From NCBI GenBank assembly GCA_028698215.1, contig JAQVDY010000014.1:1-40639 (forward strand): a DNA stretch of 40,639 nt, written 5' to 3'. Source of the DNA: Actinomycetota bacterium (lineage in GTDB: Bacteria > Actinomycetota > Humimicrobiia > Humimicrobiales > Humimicrobiaceae). The notes under the pieces were generated by a model. The model was not told the DNA's origin. It saw only the letters and a program-made list of their open reading frames with translations, and did not search any database. Position 1 is the first letter of the stretch. Each line of letters starts with the position of its first letter. A program made the translations under genes and the position numbers. This document shows positions 24,472 to 39,981 of this stretch, piece after piece.

Positions 24472-26340
24472 TTGGCTCAATTTGACGGCAAATGGGAAAA
24501 AAGGTTGGGGGATCTGCTCCTGGAAGAGGGGATAATTGATACTGAAACACTGTACAAGGCTTTAAAGCTACAGAAACAGCAGGGTGGAAGGCTGGGTTGG
24601 ATACTGGTTTCAGAGGGGCTTATTACCAGGGTAGAGTTGTACCGGACACTGTCCAAAAAGTTTGATTTACCTTTTGTATCTGATAATTTAGAGGAATTGG
24701 TTCTGGAAATGGACACAGGGCTTATGGAAGGATTGGAACCGGAGCAAATAATTGAGTACCAGACCTTGCCCCTTAAAATCAAAGACCAGGTGCTTACGGT
24801 GCTAACTGCCTATCCTCAAAACCAAAAAATATTAGGTATATTAAAAGACAAATTTAAGGTAAATGAGATAGATCAACGTGTAGTAACCGACCAGGATATA
24901 ACCGAGCTGGTAAAGAGGTTCTTCTCCCGCAGCCTGGGACGCAAAACCATATTTGGCCTGTATCACCGGAAACCTGAAGAATCAGCTTTCGTAAGGATGA
25001 ATAAACCCCAGATACTGATAACCATACTGGCAGTAATTGGTATAACTGCCGGCCTTTATTTTTATACTGATTATTTTTTACTGGGCTTGTTTGCCCTGAT
25101 ACAGACGTTTTATTTAATATCCATAGCCTACAAGTTAATTATAAGCCTGGCGGGAGTAAGGCATAAGTTTTTTAACCAATATAAAGAGCCGGGGCCGGAT
25201 AAAGATACTGAATATCCAGTATACACCGTTTTAGTACCATTATTCCATGAACCGGAACAGGTACTGGCCAGTATTATCAAGGCAATAAAAAACTTGGATT
25301 ATCCTCAAAACAAGCTGGACGTAATATTTTTATTTGAAAAAAATGATAAGCACACCATTAACCTGGCTAAAAGGCTAGGGCCTCCTTCCAGCTGGAGGTT
25401 TTTCTATGTCCCCAATGGTACGCCTACCACTAAACCCAAAGCCTGTAATTATGGGCTATACTTTGCCCGGGGCAAGTACCTGGTAATATATGATGCTGAA
25501 GATATTCCAGAGCCAGACCAGTTAAAGAAGGCTTTAGCTGCTTTTAATAACAGTCCTGAGGAATATGCTACTTTTCAGGCTTTCTTGAATTACTATAACC
25601 GTAATGAAAATTTCTTAACCAGGATGTTTACCTTGGAATATACTTATTGGTTTGACTATATGTTAAGCGGCTTGTTTAGGTTTAAACTACCCATACCTCT
25701 GGGAGGCACCAGCAATCATTTTAAAGTGGACGTATTAAGGAAAATAAGTGGATGGGATCCTTTCAATGTAACCGAAGATGCGGATTTAGGGGTAAGAATG
25801 GCAGCGGAAAAAAAGAAGGTAGGAGTAATAAATTCAACTACTTACGAGGAAGCCAACAGTAGTGTTGGTAACTGGATCAGGCAGCGTTCCCGCTGGATAA
25901 AGGGTTATATGCAGACCTCCCTGGTTTATAACCGCAGCCCTATAAAGCTGATAAGAACCCTGGGTTTTACCCGTTGGGCTTCTTTCCAGATGATTGTAAC
26001 CGGTACCCCTTTTACTTTTTTAATTAATCCCATTATGTGGCTGACTTTCCTAGCTTGGATAATTGCCAGAAACTGGATTATTTTCCCTGACATACCCTAT
26101 ATAATTGTCCTAATGGGAACTATAAGCCTAATTGCGGGGAATATAGCTATGATTCTGCTTAATTTTGCCGCTGCCTTTTCTAGAAAATACTACAGCCTTC
26201 TGCCTTTCAGCCTGCTTAACCCCCTATACTGGATACTTCATTCCATAGCTGCCTATAAAGCCCTGTGGCAGCTTATGGTAAGGCCTTTTTACTGGGAAAA
26301 AACCAACCACGGCCTAAGCAGCATCAAATTTGACCACTAA
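24472..26340 (+). CDS. Membrane glycosyltransferase family 2 with N-terminal MshEN domain
   Basis: 622 residues. Residues 11-70 match the MshEN (GspE N-terminal) cyclic-di-GMP-binding pattern: RLGDLLLEEG, then ALKLQ, then RLGWILVSEGL. Two membrane segments follow (about 180-226), then a BcsA/NfrB-type GT2 domain with D292, DAED (341-344), TED (434-436) and QRSRW (471-475), the set of processive polysaccharide synthases. Three or four membrane segments end the protein. It probably makes and exports a polysaccharide under c-di-GMP control. E. coli NfrB has its MshEN domain at the C-terminus, so the order here is reversed. The TTG start follows an in-frame stop at 24463 and has only a weak AGGA. 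No diguanylate cyclase is encoded in the window. Confidence 0.85.
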   Translation: MAQFDGKWEKRLGDLLLEEGIIDTETLYKALKLQKQQGGRLGWILVSEGLITRVELYRTLSKKFDLPFVSDNLEELVLEMDTGLMEGLEPEQIIEYQTLPLKIKDQVLTVLTAYPQNQKILGILKDKFKVNEIDQRVVTDQDITELVKRFFSRSLGRKTIFGLYHRKPEESAFVRMNKPQILITILAVIGITAGLYFYTDYFLLGLFALIQTFYLISIAYKLIISLAGVRHKFFNQYKEPGPDKDTEYPVYTVLVPLFHEPEQVLASIIKAIKNLDYPQNKLDVIFLFEKNDKHTINLAKRLGPPSSWRFFYVPNGTPTTKPKACNYGLYFARGKYLVIYDAEDIPEPDQLKKALAAFNNSPEEYATFQAFLNYYNRNENFLTRMFTLEYTYWFDYMLSGLFRFKLPIPLGGTSNHFKVDVLRKISGWDPFNVTEDADLGVRMAAEKKKVGVINSTTYEEANSSVGNWIRQRSRWIKGYMQTSLVYNRSPIKLIRTLGFTRWASFQMIVTGTPFTFLINPIMWLTFLAWIIARNWIIFPDIPYIIVLMGTISLIAGNIAMILLNFAAAFSRKYYSLLPFSLLNPLYWILHSIAAYKALWQLMVRPFYWEKTNHGLSSIKFDH

Positions 26341-32555: not shown

Positions 32556-33779
32556 ATGGAAAAAAACGTTCAGAAACAGATGGAAATAATATTGTCCGGT
32601 ACCGAAGATGTGCTGATAGAGCAAGAGCTGGAAAAACTTATAACGGAAAGCATAAATACCGGCCGAAAGTTAAAGGTTAAACTGGGCCTGGATCCCACTG
32701 CCCCTGATATACATCTGGGGCATACCGTAGTATTAAACAAACTTAGGCAGTTCCAGGATTTAGGACATCAGGCCATACTGATTATTGGTGATTATACCGC
32801 CAGGATTGGCGACCCTTCCGGCCGATCCAGGCTCAGGCCCAAACTGGATCCGGAACAGATTGACCTTAATGCAAGGACTTATATGAAGCAGGCTTATAAA
32901 GTGCTTAATCCAGACCAGACAGAGATGGTAAACAATTCCCAATGGCTAAAGCAGCTAAGCTTTGAAGATGTGCTTAACCTGACTGCCAGGTTTACTGTTG
33001 CCAGGATGCTGGAAAGAGATGACTTTAAAAAGAGATTTGCTTCCAGCACCCCTATTGCCATTATGGAGTTTCTCTATCCCATTATGCAGGCTTATGATTC
33101 GGTAGCCATAGAGGCAGACGTAGAATTGGGGGGAACCGACCAGAGGTTTAATTTACTTATGGGCCGGGAACTGCAGAAGGAGTTTTCACAGAAACCCCAG
33201 ATAGCCATAACCATGCCTATACTGGTGGGTACTGATGGGGTGGAAAAAATGAGCAAGAGCCTGGGCAACTACATCGGGGTAGATGAACCGCCCCAGGAAA
33301 TATTTGGTAAAGTAATGTCCATACCCGATGACATTATGCTAGACTATTTCCGCCTGGTTACCCGTATAGGCCTAGAAGAATACAAGCAGCTGGAGCAGCA
33401 GCTGTCCCGGGGTGACATAAATCCTTCACTGGTAAAAAGAAAACTGGCTAAAGCCGTAGTGGCTGATTTTTATAGCCAGGAGCAAGCACAGCAGGCAGAA
33501 GCTGAATTTGACCTGATATTTAAAAAGAACCAGGTACCGGATGATATTGAGGAGTATAAGATAAATAAAGGGGACGGCAAAATATGGATAGTAAAGCTGC
33601 TGGTAGATAGTGGCCTGGTCCCGTCCAATGGACAGGCCAGAAGGCTTATCAGCCAGGGAGCAGTGAAGCTGGACCAGGAAAAGATCGGGGATGCAGACCT
33701 GGAGCTGGAAGCAGAGCAGCTTGATGGCAAGGTTCTGCAGAAAGGCAAAAGACATTTTAAGCGGTTAAGGATAGGTTAA
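32556..33779 (+). CDS. tyrS: Tyrosyl-tRNA synthetase
   Basis: 407 residues. Class I synthetase: VKLGLDPTAPDIHLGHT with the HIGH motif as HLGH (53-56), KMSKS at 231-235, and a C-terminal S4 RNA-binding domain (about 340-400, GLVPSNGQARRLISQGAVKLD). The sequence is of the TyrRS group whose active site has the LDPTAPDIHLGH form. No T-box leader is possible in the short upstream gap. In Actinobacteria tyrS commonly lies near argGH, as it does here at a distance of 9 kb. The DUF134 gene follows after 1 bp, so the two are probably cotranscribed. Confidence 0.94.
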   Translation: MEKNVQKQMEIILSGTEDVLIEQELEKLITESINTGRKLKVKLGLDPTAPDIHLGHTVVLNKLRQFQDLGHQAILIIGDYTARIGDPSGRSRLRPKLDPEQIDLNARTYMKQAYKVLNPDQTEMVNNSQWLKQLSFEDVLNLTARFTVARMLERDDFKKRFASSTPIAIMEFLYPIMQAYDSVAIEADVELGGTDQRFNLLMGRELQKEFSQKPQIAITMPILVGTDGVEKMSKSLGNYIGVDEPPQEIFGKVMSIPDDIMLDYFRLVTRIGLEEYKQLEQQLSRGDINPSLVKRKLAKAVVADFYSQEQAQQAEAEFDLIFKKNQVPDDIEEYKINKGDGKIWIVKLLVDSGLVPSNGQARRLISQGAVKLDQEKIGDADLELEAEQLDGKVLQKGKRHFKRLRIG

Positions 33780-33780
33780 A

Positions 33781-34227
33781 GTGGTTAAGCCCAGAAAAAA
33801 AAGAAATGTGCTTTATCCCCCTAAAACCCTTTACTTTAAACCCCAGGGGTCAACCGGCAAGGAGCCTGAGGTGGTGCTTAGCATCGACGAGTATGAAGCG
33901 GTAAGGCTGGCTGATTATCAAAACCTCAAACAGGAACAGGCAGCATCTATGATGAATATATCCCGCCCTACTTTTACCCGCCTTATTGACAGTGCCCGCC
34001 AAAAGATTGCTAAAGCCATAGTAGGAGGCAGGGCTATACGCATAGAAGGGGGAGATTTTATTTTCCTAAAAAATAGGATCAGGTGTGACAGCTGTGGTAA
34101 TATCTGGGAAACTGAGCAAATGCAGAATAAAGAAAAAAACTGTCCCCAATGCGATAGCCAGCAGGTAACCGATGTAGGCAATATGCTAAGCCGGGGCCCC
34201 AGAAGGAGAAGAAGGGGCGGCTGGTAG
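33781..34227 (+). CDS. DUF134 family DNA-binding protein with zinc ribbon
   Basis: 148 residues, start GTG right behind tyrS. DUF134 proteins carry a helix-turn-helix like sigma-factor region 4: here SIDEYEAVRLADYQNLKQEQAASMMNISRPTFTRLIDSARQKIAKAIV (about 41-90), followed by GGRAIRIEGGDF. The C-terminus has a four-Cys zinc ribbon, CDSCGN and CPQCDS (about 101-126), and ends in a basic RRRRRGG tail. Members are predicted transcription regulators, often beside iron-sulfur or metal-cluster genes. It pairs with a second DUF134 at the end of the cluster (40200) and abuts the DUF2099 gene without a gap. A regulatory role at the 35622-35670 promoter is possible but unproven. Confidence 0.85.
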   Translation: MVKPRKKRNVLYPPKTLYFKPQGSTGKEPEVVLSIDEYEAVRLADYQNLKQEQAASMMNISRPTFTRLIDSARQKIAKAIVGGRAIRIEGGDFIFLKNRIRCDSCGNIWETEQMQNKEKNCPQCDSQQVTDVGNMLSRGPRRRRRGGW

Positions 34228-35238
34228 TTGAAGGGCAGGTTGAATAAATTTTTAGCCCGCATACAGGAACAATATGGCAAGTTGCCTAAAGATTTGCATA
34301 TTACCAAAAAAGCAGGTGCCCTGGTAGCCATATCCGGAGGGCATCCTATTTTAGCAGAAGAGCCCACATTAACTTATTGTCCCTTGTATAAGTCATTGTT
34401 TAAAGCAGACTCTATTGACCGCAAATCCATCATGGCCAAATTTGAAATCCAGGCCAAAAAGTGGGGAATGTTTACTCCAGACAGAAAGGTTTCTGAATGC
34501 AGTATAGTGGTTCCTTTCGGGGCTTCTGAAATGATTATGTATGCTCTGGAAAGGAAAGGAGTGGAAGCAGCAGTACTGGTTTGCGAAGGAGCGGGTACGG
34601 TTATCACCGATAATCCTTTTACCGTGCAGGGAATAGGAGCCTATATGAACGGTATTTTTTACACCACTGCTGTTCCGGAAATTATACATAAATTAAAAAA
34701 CCAGGGGGCCTGCGTATTATCTGAAAAAGGCACCATCAATCAGTTGGGCGGAGTGAAAAAAGCCTACAGGCAGGGATACCGTAAAATTGCGGTCACGGTC
34801 AGGGGGGATCAAATAGACCAGATAAAAAAGATAAGGGATTTTCAATTCAGGAATCCCGGATTTACCACAGTTATCATGGCAGTATGCAATACTGGAATTT
34901 CCGGATACCAGGCCAGAGTAGTCAGGGATAATGCTGATCTGGCCTGGGCCTGTGCCTCTTCTAAAATCAGAAGTATTGTGGGTCCTGCTTCAATGGTGCA
35001 GCTAGGAATGAAAATACCGGTATTTATAACTACCAGTGCGGGTATTGAGTTATTGTCCCATTATTCTAACCAGAAAGAGCTGCTTTCAGTTTTAGAAAGC
35101 GGGTCCAAAAAATATATAACCTCCAGCCGCTGCCAGCAAGGGGGGACCAAATTCAATATGGGTAGGTTTTCAGTTTATTTATATCCAGTGGATAAACTGC
35201 CGGTATATACTCCGGATCAGCCCCAGCCCTTAGCATAG
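34228..35238 (+). CDS. DUF2099 / methanogenesis marker 8 family protein
   Basis: 336 residues. From memory it follows the pattern of the methanogen marker 8 proteins: a start with an ILAEEPTLTYCPLYKSLF stretch, GMFTPDRKV, ALERKGVEAAVLVCEGAGTVIT, VQGIGAYMNGIFYTTAVPEII, INQLGGVKKAYRQGYRKIAVTV, and a Cys in ADLAWACASSKIRSIVG. The function of the family is unknown; in methanogens it is linked to methanogenesis by presence alone. No signal peptide or membrane segment is seen. The TTG start at 34228 follows the DUF134 stop directly. No methanogenesis genes are in the window, so this bacterial copy presumably works with the metal-cluster genes downstream. A homology search would settle the family. 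Confidence 0.65.
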   Translation: MKGRLNKFLARIQEQYGKLPKDLHITKKAGALVAISGGHPILAEEPTLTYCPLYKSLFKADSIDRKSIMAKFEIQAKKWGMFTPDRKVSECSIVVPFGASEMIMYALERKGVEAAVLVCEGAGTVITDNPFTVQGIGAYMNGIFYTTAVPEIIHKLKNQGACVLSEKGTINQLGGVKKAYRQGYRKIAVTVRGDQIDQIKKIRDFQFRNPGFTTVIMAVCNTGISGYQARVVRDNADLAWACASSKIRSIVGPASMVQLGMKIPVFITTSAGIELLSHYSNQKELLSVLESGSKKYITSSRCQQGGTKFNMGRFSVYLYPVDKLPVYTPDQPQPLA

Positions 35239-35245
35239 AAAACGC

Positions 35246-35276
35246 TTGACAATAGTTGTATATAATATAATAATAT
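35246..35276 (+). promoter_or_regulatory. Promoter of the FmdB-type zinc ribbon gene
   Basis: A perfect -35 box TTGACA (35246-35251) is followed by a run of overlapping -10-like sequences: TATAAT at 35261 and 35266, TAATAA at 35268 (16-nt spacing) and TAATAT at 35271. The correctly spaced TAATAA is the most likely. The start codon is at 35305, with AGGAGG before it. Confidence 0.6.
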
Positions 35277-35304: not shown

Positions 35305-35493
35305 ATGCCTATATACAGCTATAAATGCAAAAGCTGTGGAAACAGCTTTGATCTTTTAACCGGGGAAGAATTGGCTTGCACCAAATGTGGAAGCCAGGAA
35401 ATAGAAAAAAACTATGCTAGTTTTGAATTTAATGCTAATGTAGATAAAAGTAGTGGATGTGGAAGCTGCGGCGGGGGATGCTGCGGTTTTTAA
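35305..35493 (+). CDS. FmdB/FmdB-like small zinc ribbon protein
   Basis: 62 residues. MPIYSYKCKSCGNSFDLL with C8/C11 and CTKCGS with C25/C28 is the FmdB putative regulator zinc ribbon, a family first seen beside formylmethanofuran and amidase genes. A Gly/Cys-rich tail, GCGSCGGGCCGF, adds four more Cys and may bind a further metal. AGGAGG precedes the ATG. It stands alone between its own promoter (35246) and a strong terminator (35516). Its role is unknown; such proteins may bind metal or regulate. Its position within the metal-cluster region is suggestive. Confidence 0.85.
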   Translation: MPIYSYKCKSCGNSFDLLTGEELACTKCGSQEIEKNYASFEFNANVDKSSGCGSCGGGCCGF

Positions 35494-35515
35494 ATATATT
35501 ACAATCCTGAGCGGA

Positions 35516-35546
35516 GGGCCGCATACCAAGCGGCCCTTTTAATTTT
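35516..35546 (+). terminator. Rho-independent terminator after the zinc ribbon gene
   Basis: GGGCCGC (35516-35522) pairs with GCGGCCC (35530-35536) around a 7-nt loop, followed by TTTTAATTTT (35537-35546). A textbook terminator, separating the zinc-ribbon transcript from the next operon. Confidence 0.88.
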
Positions 35547-36378: not shown

Positions 36379-37185
36379 ATGAACGACATGAACCAAGATC
36401 AGAAATTAGAAGAAAATATGTCTCAGGTAAAACGTAAATTTATGGTATTTAGCGGCAAGGGGGGAGTTGGCAAGACCACAGTGTCCGTAAACTTAGCCTA
36501 TTCCCTGATGGCTAAGGGTAACAAGGTAGGTTTGCTGGATGTGGACATACATGGCCCCAACGTAATCAAGGCCTTGGGGCTGGATAAGGAAAAACTGTCT
36601 GGAACCGGGCAAAAAATTAAACCCCTGGAGGCTTTCAATAATCTCAAAGTGATAAGCACCGCTTCTTTTTTGGAGACTGAAGACAGCCCCGTAATATGGC
36701 GGGGACCGTTAAAGATGAAGATTATCAGGCAGTTTTTAACTGATGTGGATTGGGGCCAGTTGGATTATATGATCATAGATTCTCCTCCCGGAACTGGAGA
36801 TGAGCCACTTTCCATAGCCCAGCTTATGCCCGGCCTGACCGGGGGAATTGTAGTAACCACTCCCCAGCAAATGGCTACTATAGATGCTAAAAAAAGTATC
36901 AGGTTTGCCCAGCAGCTCAAACTCCCCTATATAGGGGTAGTGGAAAATATGTCCGGTTTTCTTTGTCCCCACTGCGGGCAAAGGATAGATATTTTTAAAA
37001 CCGGGGGAGGACAACAGATTGCTGAAGAAATGGGAGTAGATTTCTTGGGAAGAATTCCCTATGACCCCCTGGTTATGAGTTTAAGTGATGAAGGCCATGT
37101 ATATTTAAAGGATTATAAAAATGGCACTCCTGTAAGTGAAGCCTATAGCCATATAGCTAACCGGATTAAAAGTATTGCTAAATAA
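36379..37185 (+). CDS. Mrp/NBP35-family P-loop ATPase, iron-sulfur cluster carrier
   Basis: 268 residues. The deviant Walker A GKGGVGKTT is at 26-34, DVDIHGPNV and IIDSPPGTGDEPLS follow, and Cys196/Cys199 in CPHCGQR is the C-terminal CPxC that bridges an iron-sulfur cluster between two monomers. Mrp/ApbC/NBP35 proteins hold and deliver clusters. Without an N-terminal four-Cys motif it is the short Mrp type. In Desulfovibrio, Mrp-like ATPases are part of the ORP complex, and an ORP/NifX-like gene is encoded at 39598. A second ATG lies at 36388, in frame. Ribosome-binding site AAAGGCGG is weak. Confidence 0.92.
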   Translation: MNDMNQDQKLEENMSQVKRKFMVFSGKGGVGKTTVSVNLAYSLMAKGNKVGLLDVDIHGPNVIKALGLDKEKLSGTGQKIKPLEAFNNLKVISTASFLETEDSPVIWRGPLKMKIIRQFLTDVDWGQLDYMIIDSPPGTGDEPLSIAQLMPGLTGGIVVTTPQQMATIDAKKSIRFAQQLKLPYIGVVENMSGFLCPHCGQRIDIFKTGGGQQIAEEMGVDFLGRIPYDPLVMSLSDEGHVYLKDYKNGTPVSEAYSHIANRIKSIAK

Positions 37186-38662: not shown

Positions 38663-39601
38663 ATGTTTTATGGTCCAGTGCTTTCACGCAGATTCGGTTA
38701 TTCTTTAGGGGTGGATGTAATACCGTTTAAGGTGTGCAGCTATGATTGTGTTTATTGCCAGCTGGGGCCTACCACCTTAAAAACAATAGAAAGAAAAAGT
38801 TATCTTGAGGTTGATATCAACCAGTTCAAAAAAGAATTAATAGATAAAATTAGCGATTTTCCCTATATTAATTATGTAACTTTTTCCGGCTCGGGGGAAC
38901 CTACCTTAAATTTGGATATAGGCCAGCTTATTGGAGCGGCCAAAGGAGTCTCTCCGGTACCGGTAGCGGTACTTACCTGCGGGGCTACTCTGGGTCTGCC
39001 GGGAGTGGTGGAGGATCTAGGGCAAGCGGATATAGTTAAAGTTTCCCTGGATGCCTGCAGCCAGGATTCCTTAAAAAAGATTAACCGGCCGGCAGCAGGC
39101 ATAGATTTTGAATCCAACCTGATGGGCCTAAAAAGATTAACCCAGGAATTTGAGGGCAGTATATGGCTGGAAATAATGGTTCTGAAGGGCATAAATGATA
39201 ACCTGGGAAGCGCTAACCGTTTTAAAACCATAATAGATGAGTTAGGCAGCAGGATAGATAAGATACACTTAAATACAGCTGTAAGGCCTTCGGGGGGCGG
39301 CTACATCAGGCTACCAGACCAGGGCAGTCTTAAAGAGATTAAAAACATATTGGGCAGCAGGGCAGAAATAATAGGTAAGGTAGAATACGGCCAATACAGC
39401 AGCAACCTTATAAACATGGAGCAGGGAATAACCGAACTTGTAAAGAGGAGGCCGGCCACCATTACTGATATGGCCTCCGCCTTGGGGATAAACAGAAATG
39501 AAGCTATCAAAATTTGCGATAAGTTGATGTCTGAAGGAAAAATAAGGTACAGTATAAAAGGATCTGATAAATATTATGTTACAGATAAGGAGCGAATATG
39601 A
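38663..39601 (+). CDS. Radical SAM protein (COG0731-like) with C-terminal winged helix
   Basis: 312 residues. C25-SYD-C29-VY-C32 (CxxxCxxC) binds the radical SAM 4Fe-4S cluster, and TFSGSGEPTLN is the SAM-binding stretch. After the barrel (about 1-235) a C-terminal winged helix (about 255-310, ITELVKRRPATITDMASALGINRNEAIKICDKLMSEGKIRY) could bind nucleic acid or protein. COG0731 members include wyosine-type enzymes, but most bacterial ones lack an assigned reaction. The start codon follows the stop of the MBL gene directly, and the TGA overlaps the NifX-like start (ATGA). It could build or insert part of a metal cluster or cofactor. The substrate is unknown. Confidence 0.85.
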   Translation: MFYGPVLSRRFGYSLGVDVIPFKVCSYDCVYCQLGPTTLKTIERKSYLEVDINQFKKELIDKISDFPYINYVTFSGSGEPTLNLDIGQLIGAAKGVSPVPVAVLTCGATLGLPGVVEDLGQADIVKVSLDACSQDSLKKINRPAAGIDFESNLMGLKRLTQEFEGSIWLEIMVLKGINDNLGSANRFKTIIDELGSRIDKIHLNTAVRPSGGGYIRLPDQGSLKEIKNILGSRAEIIGKVEYGQYSSNLINMEQGITELVKRRPATITDMASALGINRNEAIKICDKLMSEGKIRYSIKGSDKYYVTDKERI

Positions 39602-39981
39602 AAATTGCTATTTCCACTGATAATAATATGGTATCGCCTCATTTTGGCCGATGCCCTCAATTTACCATTGTGGATTTTGAAGAGGGGAAAATAAAGGAAC
39701 AAAAGATTATAGATAACCCGGGGCATCATCCGGGGTACCTGCCCCAGTTTTTAGCTGAACAGGGAGTAAGCTGTATAGTGGCCGGAGGCATGGGAAGCAG
39801 GGCCGAAGAGCTGTTTGGCCAAGCCCATATCGATACGGTGTTAGGTGTTCAGGGGGAAATACCTGAAGTTATAGACAAGCTGCTAAAAGGTACCCTGGAG
39901 GGAAGCCCAAGCGCTTGTAGCCCTGGAGCTGGAAGGGGTTACGGTATTAATAAAACAGAATGTGATCATGAGGAGGAATGA
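39598..39981 (+). CDS. NifX/NifB-type dinitrogenase iron-molybdenum cofactor-binding protein (ORP-like)
   Basis: 127 residues with the NifX/NafY fold: MKIAISTDNNMVSPHFGRCPQFTIVDFEEGKI, then GVSCIVAGGMGSRAEELFGQAHIDTVLGVQG. Members carry metal clusters; the Desulfovibrio gigas orange protein (ORP) holds a Mo-Cu sulfide cluster, and NifX carries FeMo-co precursors. The C-terminus ends in a Cys- and Gly-rich stretch (SACSPGAGRGYG) and an acidic tail. ATG overlaps the radical SAM stop. No nitrogenase genes are seen, so an ORP-like role is more likely than nitrogen fixation. Confidence 0.88.
   Translation: MKIAISTDNNMVSPHFGRCPQFTIVDFEEGKIKEQKIIDNPGHHPGYLPQFLAEQGVSCIVAGGMGSRAEELFGQAHIDTVLGVQGEIPEVIDKLLKGTLEGSPSACSPGAGRGYGINKTECDHEEE

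Follow-up and report, generated by a model that had tools for sequence, protein, structure and literature searches.

We found that methanogenesis marker 8 (MMP8), whose family is a long-standing signature of methane-making archaea, is also encoded by bacteria, most likely as a small clade within one family of anaerobic Actinomycetota that has inherited it mostly vertically. The reading we favour, at a probability of roughly 45%, is that MMP8 is an FrhB-like redox protein that works without F420 chemistry and has been kept mostly by vertical descent. The gene occupies positions 34,228 to 35,238 on the forward strand of the window, by which we mean the whole 40,639-nucleotide stretch analysed; its TTG start follows directly on the stop codon of a DUF134 gene, and it encodes 336 amino acids. 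The NCBIfam model for marker 8 is TIGR03275, which we take to be one of ProPhylo's methanogen-marker models. According to the ProPhylo paper (PMC3226654), 33 TIGRFAM models are found in all archaeal methanogens and in nothing else. Literature searches by the names DUF2099 and marker 8 gave no matches, although one paper does contain the TIGR03275 identifier, and no known function for the family was found there.

The window protein matches Pfam DUF2099 (PF09872) over profile positions 1-253 of 257 with 249.8 bits (E 3.4e-74), above the gathering cut-off of 25 bits; on TIGR03275 it matches positions 10-253 of 259 with 210.1 bits (E 3.2e-62), below the curated cut-off of 232.7. The sequence-only reading had called the gene a DUF2099/marker-8 homologue, to be abandoned if its HMM score fell below the family threshold or its best matches lay in an unrelated family: taken literally, the window protein does fall short on TIGR03275, while clearing DUF2099 easily. 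The low TIGR03275 score leaves homology standing, because the family is not an unrelated one and seven orthologues from bacteria of the host's family pass the same model with scores of 240-252; the bacterial branch therefore satisfies the marker's own definition. Judged from its sequence, the window gene is a true DUF2099/marker-8 homologue. The copy from genome G004 scores 228, also under the cut-off, and the one archaeal sequence used for comparison, a copy on a Methanosphaera plasmid, scores 310.7. Although the match to both models is full-length, the window protein differs from the described family in scoring below the TIGR03275 cut-off where sister copies score above it, in coming from a bacterium in which McrA, CfbD and marker 3 were not detected, and in carrying a C-terminal extension of about 55 residues (about 278-336; 35,059-35,235, + strand) that lies outside both family models. 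All full-length bacterial members have such an extension, which the archaeal copy almost lacks; the G020 and G004 proteins (L021 and L022) additionally carry insertions of ~20-30 residues in the same loop, near window residue 208.

DUF2099 was present in 11 of 396 genomes sampled across the Actinomycetota, all 11 of them in the window's own family, and likewise in 11 of 40 genomes (MAGs) of the host's class, all in one taxonomic family. The window's genome (1.78 Mb, 98% complete) holds a single copy. TIGR03275 is thus not confined to methanogens or MCR-bearing archaea, its hosts here being bacteria in which the McrA N domain was undetected (11 of 11 carriers), and the methanogen-only rule is broken by bacterial members at the official threshold. 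Searches for viral or phage copies found none, and a plasmid search returned only the Methanosphaera copy; on that plasmid, pNP174, the marker-8 gene (L026, 8001-8849) sits amid HTH, Ig-like repeat and group II intron genes.

The carriers resemble draft metagenome assemblies, two being recorded as MAGs, so archaeal DNA binned by mistake with bacterial MAGs had to be considered. Such an artefact is next to impossible: the gene holds the same place after tyrS, or after tyrS and DUF134, in seven further, separate genomes, where it is accompanied by bacterial genes, and the tyrS-linked copies are 49-70% identical to one another (the range among all ten window-type copies, partial ones counted) against about 30% to the archaeal copy. 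Confinement to one taxonomic family on syntenic contigs therefore speaks against contamination, which for the window type is refuted by synteny. The window itself was correctly recognised as bacterial from sequence, its argR, PASTA-domain penicillin-binding protein and tyrS genes all being borne out by Pfam.

In the MMP8 tree the copies of G000, G001 and G007 group together, as they do in the tyrS tree, which fits vertical descent; most other forks are unresolved, and two loci run into contig ends, G002 within the MMP8 copy and G001 on its right side. The copy in G033 stands apart, with only 37-42% identity to the rest and a very long branch, whereas the tyrS of this genome shares 66-75% identity with the others; this MMP8 copy was thus probably acquired separately or is an old paralogue. 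The G016 gene (L025, 4421-4906) is truncated at 161 codons and jumps to a normal-looking C-terminal end (ERPLPLI), which suggests an internal deletion or a gene in decay.

Bacterial and archaeal proteins share an N-terminal region containing D22, H24 and C51 (34,291-34,380, + strand), and D22, H24, C51, C119 and C242 are among the residues invariant between the bacteria and the archaeon; three cysteines and one histidine of the window protein thus recur in the archaeal copy, within a shared pattern of D22/H24, C51, C119-x-G-x-GT, Q-G-x-G and C242. C220 is not conserved there. The protein had been said to follow a motif pattern typical of methanogens, and all three motifs quoted for it are present in the translation, but in their bacterial form: the archaeal copy reads CDGVGT and VQGVGGRVSA, so the description was only roughly right.

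The predicted structure resembles in part a known class of flavin proteins that carry electrons. Two AlphaFold models with different first sequences (moderate overall confidence, mean pLDDT 76 for both, pTM 0.80 and 0.76, with low confidence at residues 253-280 and at the C-terminus) were searched against the PDB with Foldseek, and the top 9 matches of the first and top 11 of the second were all FrhB of F420-reducing hydrogenase, FdhB-type proteins, F420-dependent sulfite reductase (Fsr), related F420-reducing subunits or HCAR. These matches had E values of 2e-4 to 2e-2 and probabilities of mostly 0.9-1.0, with a global TM score of only about 0.25 and an rmsd of 5-20 Å; the match is therefore partial and only parts superpose. 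Comparing the DUF2099 profile with an FrhB-family alignment gave scores of 33-39 (probability 18-46%), against a maximum of 24.8 among controls comprising six unrelated families, reversed profiles and 60 column shuffles, with a confident local match over about residues 76-186. Taken singly, FrhB sequences could not be told apart from decoys, and the sequence signal is therefore confined to the profile level; the DUF2099 profile found no FrhB chain in the PDB at E 10, a search for a solved homologue by sequence found none, and a Pfam scan of the window protein at E 0.001 gave DUF2099 alone, without PF04422 or PF04432. We consider it fairly likely that the marker-8 core is homologous to FrhB.

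The order of motifs along the chain is also that of FrhB, comprising a flavin-site helix, a KYT loop, two strand-Cys segments and a terminal strand-helix; pairs outside the local match come from a forced full-length alignment and are approximate. An FrhB-like segment by profile alignment and secondary structure, G98-x-S-E...YAL...C119-E-G-A-G-T...F-Y-T146 (34,519-34,665, + strand), contains GASEMIMYAL (98-107), which in the forced alignment pairs with FrhB GIVTGLLAYAL, the buried helix at the FAD pyrophosphate site (PMC3591093), and NGIFYT, whose FYT (144-146) pairs with AGTKYT of FrhB, where the K75-Y76 loop lies near FAD (PMC3591093). Downstream, a predicted strand-helix-strand, KIAVTVRGDQIDQIKKIR...TTVIMAVC220...WAC242 (34,783-34,953, + strand), aligns with FrhB KLGTVAIPC...KLLVGIYC, KIAVTVRGD pairing with KLGTVAIPC and TTVIMAVC with KLLVGIYC, and VFITTSAGIELL pairs with the FrhB terminal strand-helix TVITRTDAGDSIF.

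Beyond the lack of a significant sequence-only match, the protein differs from FrhB and its relatives FdhB, HCAR and Fsr in the region of the F420 site. In FrhB the sheet at 148-172 and the IGKGK turn, between C134 and C192, are assigned to F420 (PMC3591093); 58 residues separate these cysteines, against 22 between C220 and C242 of the window protein, so the F420 site is probably gone, in agreement with the failure of HMM searches to find F420 ligase (CofE) in 25 genomes, themselves incomplete, of the host family. The F420-binding insert itself appears to be missing, and an F420-dependent function in the host is disfavoured by the CofE result. Of the four FrhB cluster cysteines (104, 134, 192 and 195), at most two have counterparts in the approximate alignment, in the segments of C220 and C242, with none for the IPC cysteine or for one member of the C-x-x-C pair; the N-terminal ferredoxin region found in many family members is absent as well. 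D22, H24, C51, C119 and C242 could instead build a different metal or cluster site.

In the mechanism we propose, the core would be a diverged FrhB/FdhB/HCAR-type domain whose flavin-site helix and Y-T loop lead into strands alternating with helices; the conserved C51, C119 and C242 would replace the usual four cluster ligands, and the F420-binding insert would have been lost. Electrons would then probably pass via a bound flavin, an Fe-S or metal site, or both, to a partner that is not F420, either a protein or a cofactor. We put flavin or Fe-S binding at even odds, and are somewhat more tentative about a redox role acting on a partner or metal cofactor. The predicted fold suggests a redox job that is not tied to methane itself.

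Gene content points the same way. HMM searches of the 11 carriers, whose genomes are incomplete, gave no match in any of them to the McrA N domain, to CfbD (marker 13) or to marker 3, and acetyl-CoA synthase (ACS) is uncorrelated with MMP8, occurring in 6 of 11 carriers and 13 of 29 non-carriers. With F420 ligase also undetected, methanogenesis, F430, F420 and Wood-Ljungdahl chemistry are all improbable as the function in bacteria, which upholds the earlier suggestion of a role outside methane formation. Methanogenesis or F430 in the host was rejected on the missing McrA, marker 13 and marker 3. The gene might be a Wood-Ljungdahl remnant, serving acetyl-CoA synthase or a methyl transfer common to methanogens and acetogens, and the six ACS-bearing carriers and an MTHFR-like gene near the G033 copy would suit that; we disfavour it as very improbable, as the 98%-complete host genome gives no ACS match and ACS is about equally common without MMP8.

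Both models have HCAR, the 7-hydroxymethyl chlorophyll a reductase, among their best fold matches, and marker 8 is among the few gene clusters common only to the MCR-bearing Ca. Polytropus, Bathyarchaeota and Syntrophoarchaeum (PMC6474303); both would suit a flavin/Fe-S reductase of tetrapyrroles resembling HCAR, its substrate F430-related in archaea and a corrinoid or another compound in bacteria. This is a decidedly unlikely reading, given that the F430 marker CfbD is undetected in the carriers, that no tetrapyrrole gene adjoins MMP8 except a URO-D-family gene by the truncated G016 copy, and that the substrate pocket is modelled unreliably.

We also asked what the neighbours of MMP8 say of its function. 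Upstream, tyrS (32,556-33,779, + strand) is a conserved anchor, lying directly before MMP8 or one gene further in 8 of 11 carriers. Between the two, in genera g1 and g5, lies a gene for a DUF134 HTH protein with a weak C-terminal zinc-ribbon match (33,781-34,227, + strand), giving the order tyrS-DUF134-MMP8 in G000, G001, G002 and G007. In G025 and G018 the order is tyrS-MMP8 followed by [NiFe] hydrogenase small and large subunits, cytochrome b, a protease and a HypA-like gene; G020 has the same start as far as its contig reaches, within the cytochrome b gene, and in G004 MMP8 is followed by HdrC, HdrB and HdrA-like genes. The same arrangements exist without MMP8: tyrS adjoins hydrogenase genes in G013, G022, G023, G028 and G030, and a HypA-like gene in other genomes without MMP8; DUF134 also occurs 3' of tyrS elsewhere, as in G017, and in G008 tyrS-DUF134 is present with MMP8 located elsewhere. 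MMP8 thus keeps its place while its partners change.

This bears on whether MMP8 could be an accessory for nickel or another metal cofactor, inserting or reactivating a Ni/Fe-S site, in MCR in archaea and in [NiFe] hydrogenase or another nickel enzyme in bacteria. The hydrogenase and cytochrome b genes after MMP8 in G025, G018 and G020, with protease and HypA-like genes beyond them in the first two, are what such a role would lead one to expect, as are the CbiM/CbiQ/ABC genes (Co/Ni uptake) and MinD-type Fe-S ATPase near the divergent G033 copy and the LarA-type gene near the truncated G016 copy. Yet hydrogenase genes adjoin MMP8 in only 3 of 11 carriers, short of a linkage to [NiFe] maturation, and since tyrS-hydrogenase occurs without MMP8 in other genera, and tyrS-HypA likewise occurs without it, the adjacency appears positional, with tyrS and DUF134 the only conserved neighbours. 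Group-1-type hydrogenases are common in MMP8-negative relatives. In the host a full-length large subunit of this type is lacking, a 435-aa ORF giving partial matches only, and the gene run shared by the relatives, with its HypA and protease genes, does not adjoin MMP8 in the window. We regard this role as unlikely.

Downstream in the window lie a promoter-like site, TTGACA-17-AATAAT, just 3' of MMP8 (35,246-35,274, + strand; a consensus match only), an FmdB-type zinc-ribbon gene (62 aa; 35,305-35,493, + strand), which has a Shine-Dalgarno-like GGAGG, goes unnamed in the sequence-only finding and is located between MMP8 and a DUF5320 gene, and a terminator-like hairpin (35,513-35,539, + strand; likewise a consensus match only) that sets the FmdB unit apart from the DUF5320/Mrp cluster. 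The Mrp/NifX cluster thus starts about 0.5 kb downstream of MMP8, beyond all three, and it is not 3' of MMP8 in the other genomes with a readable downstream side. Together with the changing downstream genes, these intervening elements make guilt by association with metal-cluster genes weak, and the functional clue that the sequence-only reading drew from these neighbours is not supported; the cofactor chemistry it proposed is possible on the predicted flavoprotein fold and conserved cysteines, with no basis in the neighbours. An FmdB ribbon also abuts or overlaps the start of the divergent G033 copy, which is suggestive only.

For genome annotation, where marker 8 is taken as a sign of methane or alkane metabolism in metagenomes, this matters: several bacterial proteins pass the official cut-off, so the marker-8 rule can give false calls. 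The FrhB-like fold yields a concrete, testable prediction, that of an anaerobic flavin or Fe-S redox protein, and if that reading is true a methanogen 'domain of unknown function' becomes a question of enzyme class. A bolder version, which we think improbable, is that marker 8 is an unrecognised FrhB/HCAR branch that lost its F420 site and is dedicated to supplying electrons to an enzyme with a metal cofactor. In archaea this would be MCR/F430, in the MCR-free bacteria another anaerobic metalloenzyme; were it true, the bacteria would offer a separate system for learning marker 8's job.

Elsewhere in the window, a search for RNA families found none. The Mrp/NBP35 ATPase (36,379-37,185) and the NifX-like protein (39,598-39,981) correspond to the N- and C-terminal portions of MrpORP, which here appears split into two genes, and positions 24,472-26,340 encode a 622-aa protein in which an MshEN domain is joined to a family-2 glycosyltransferase.
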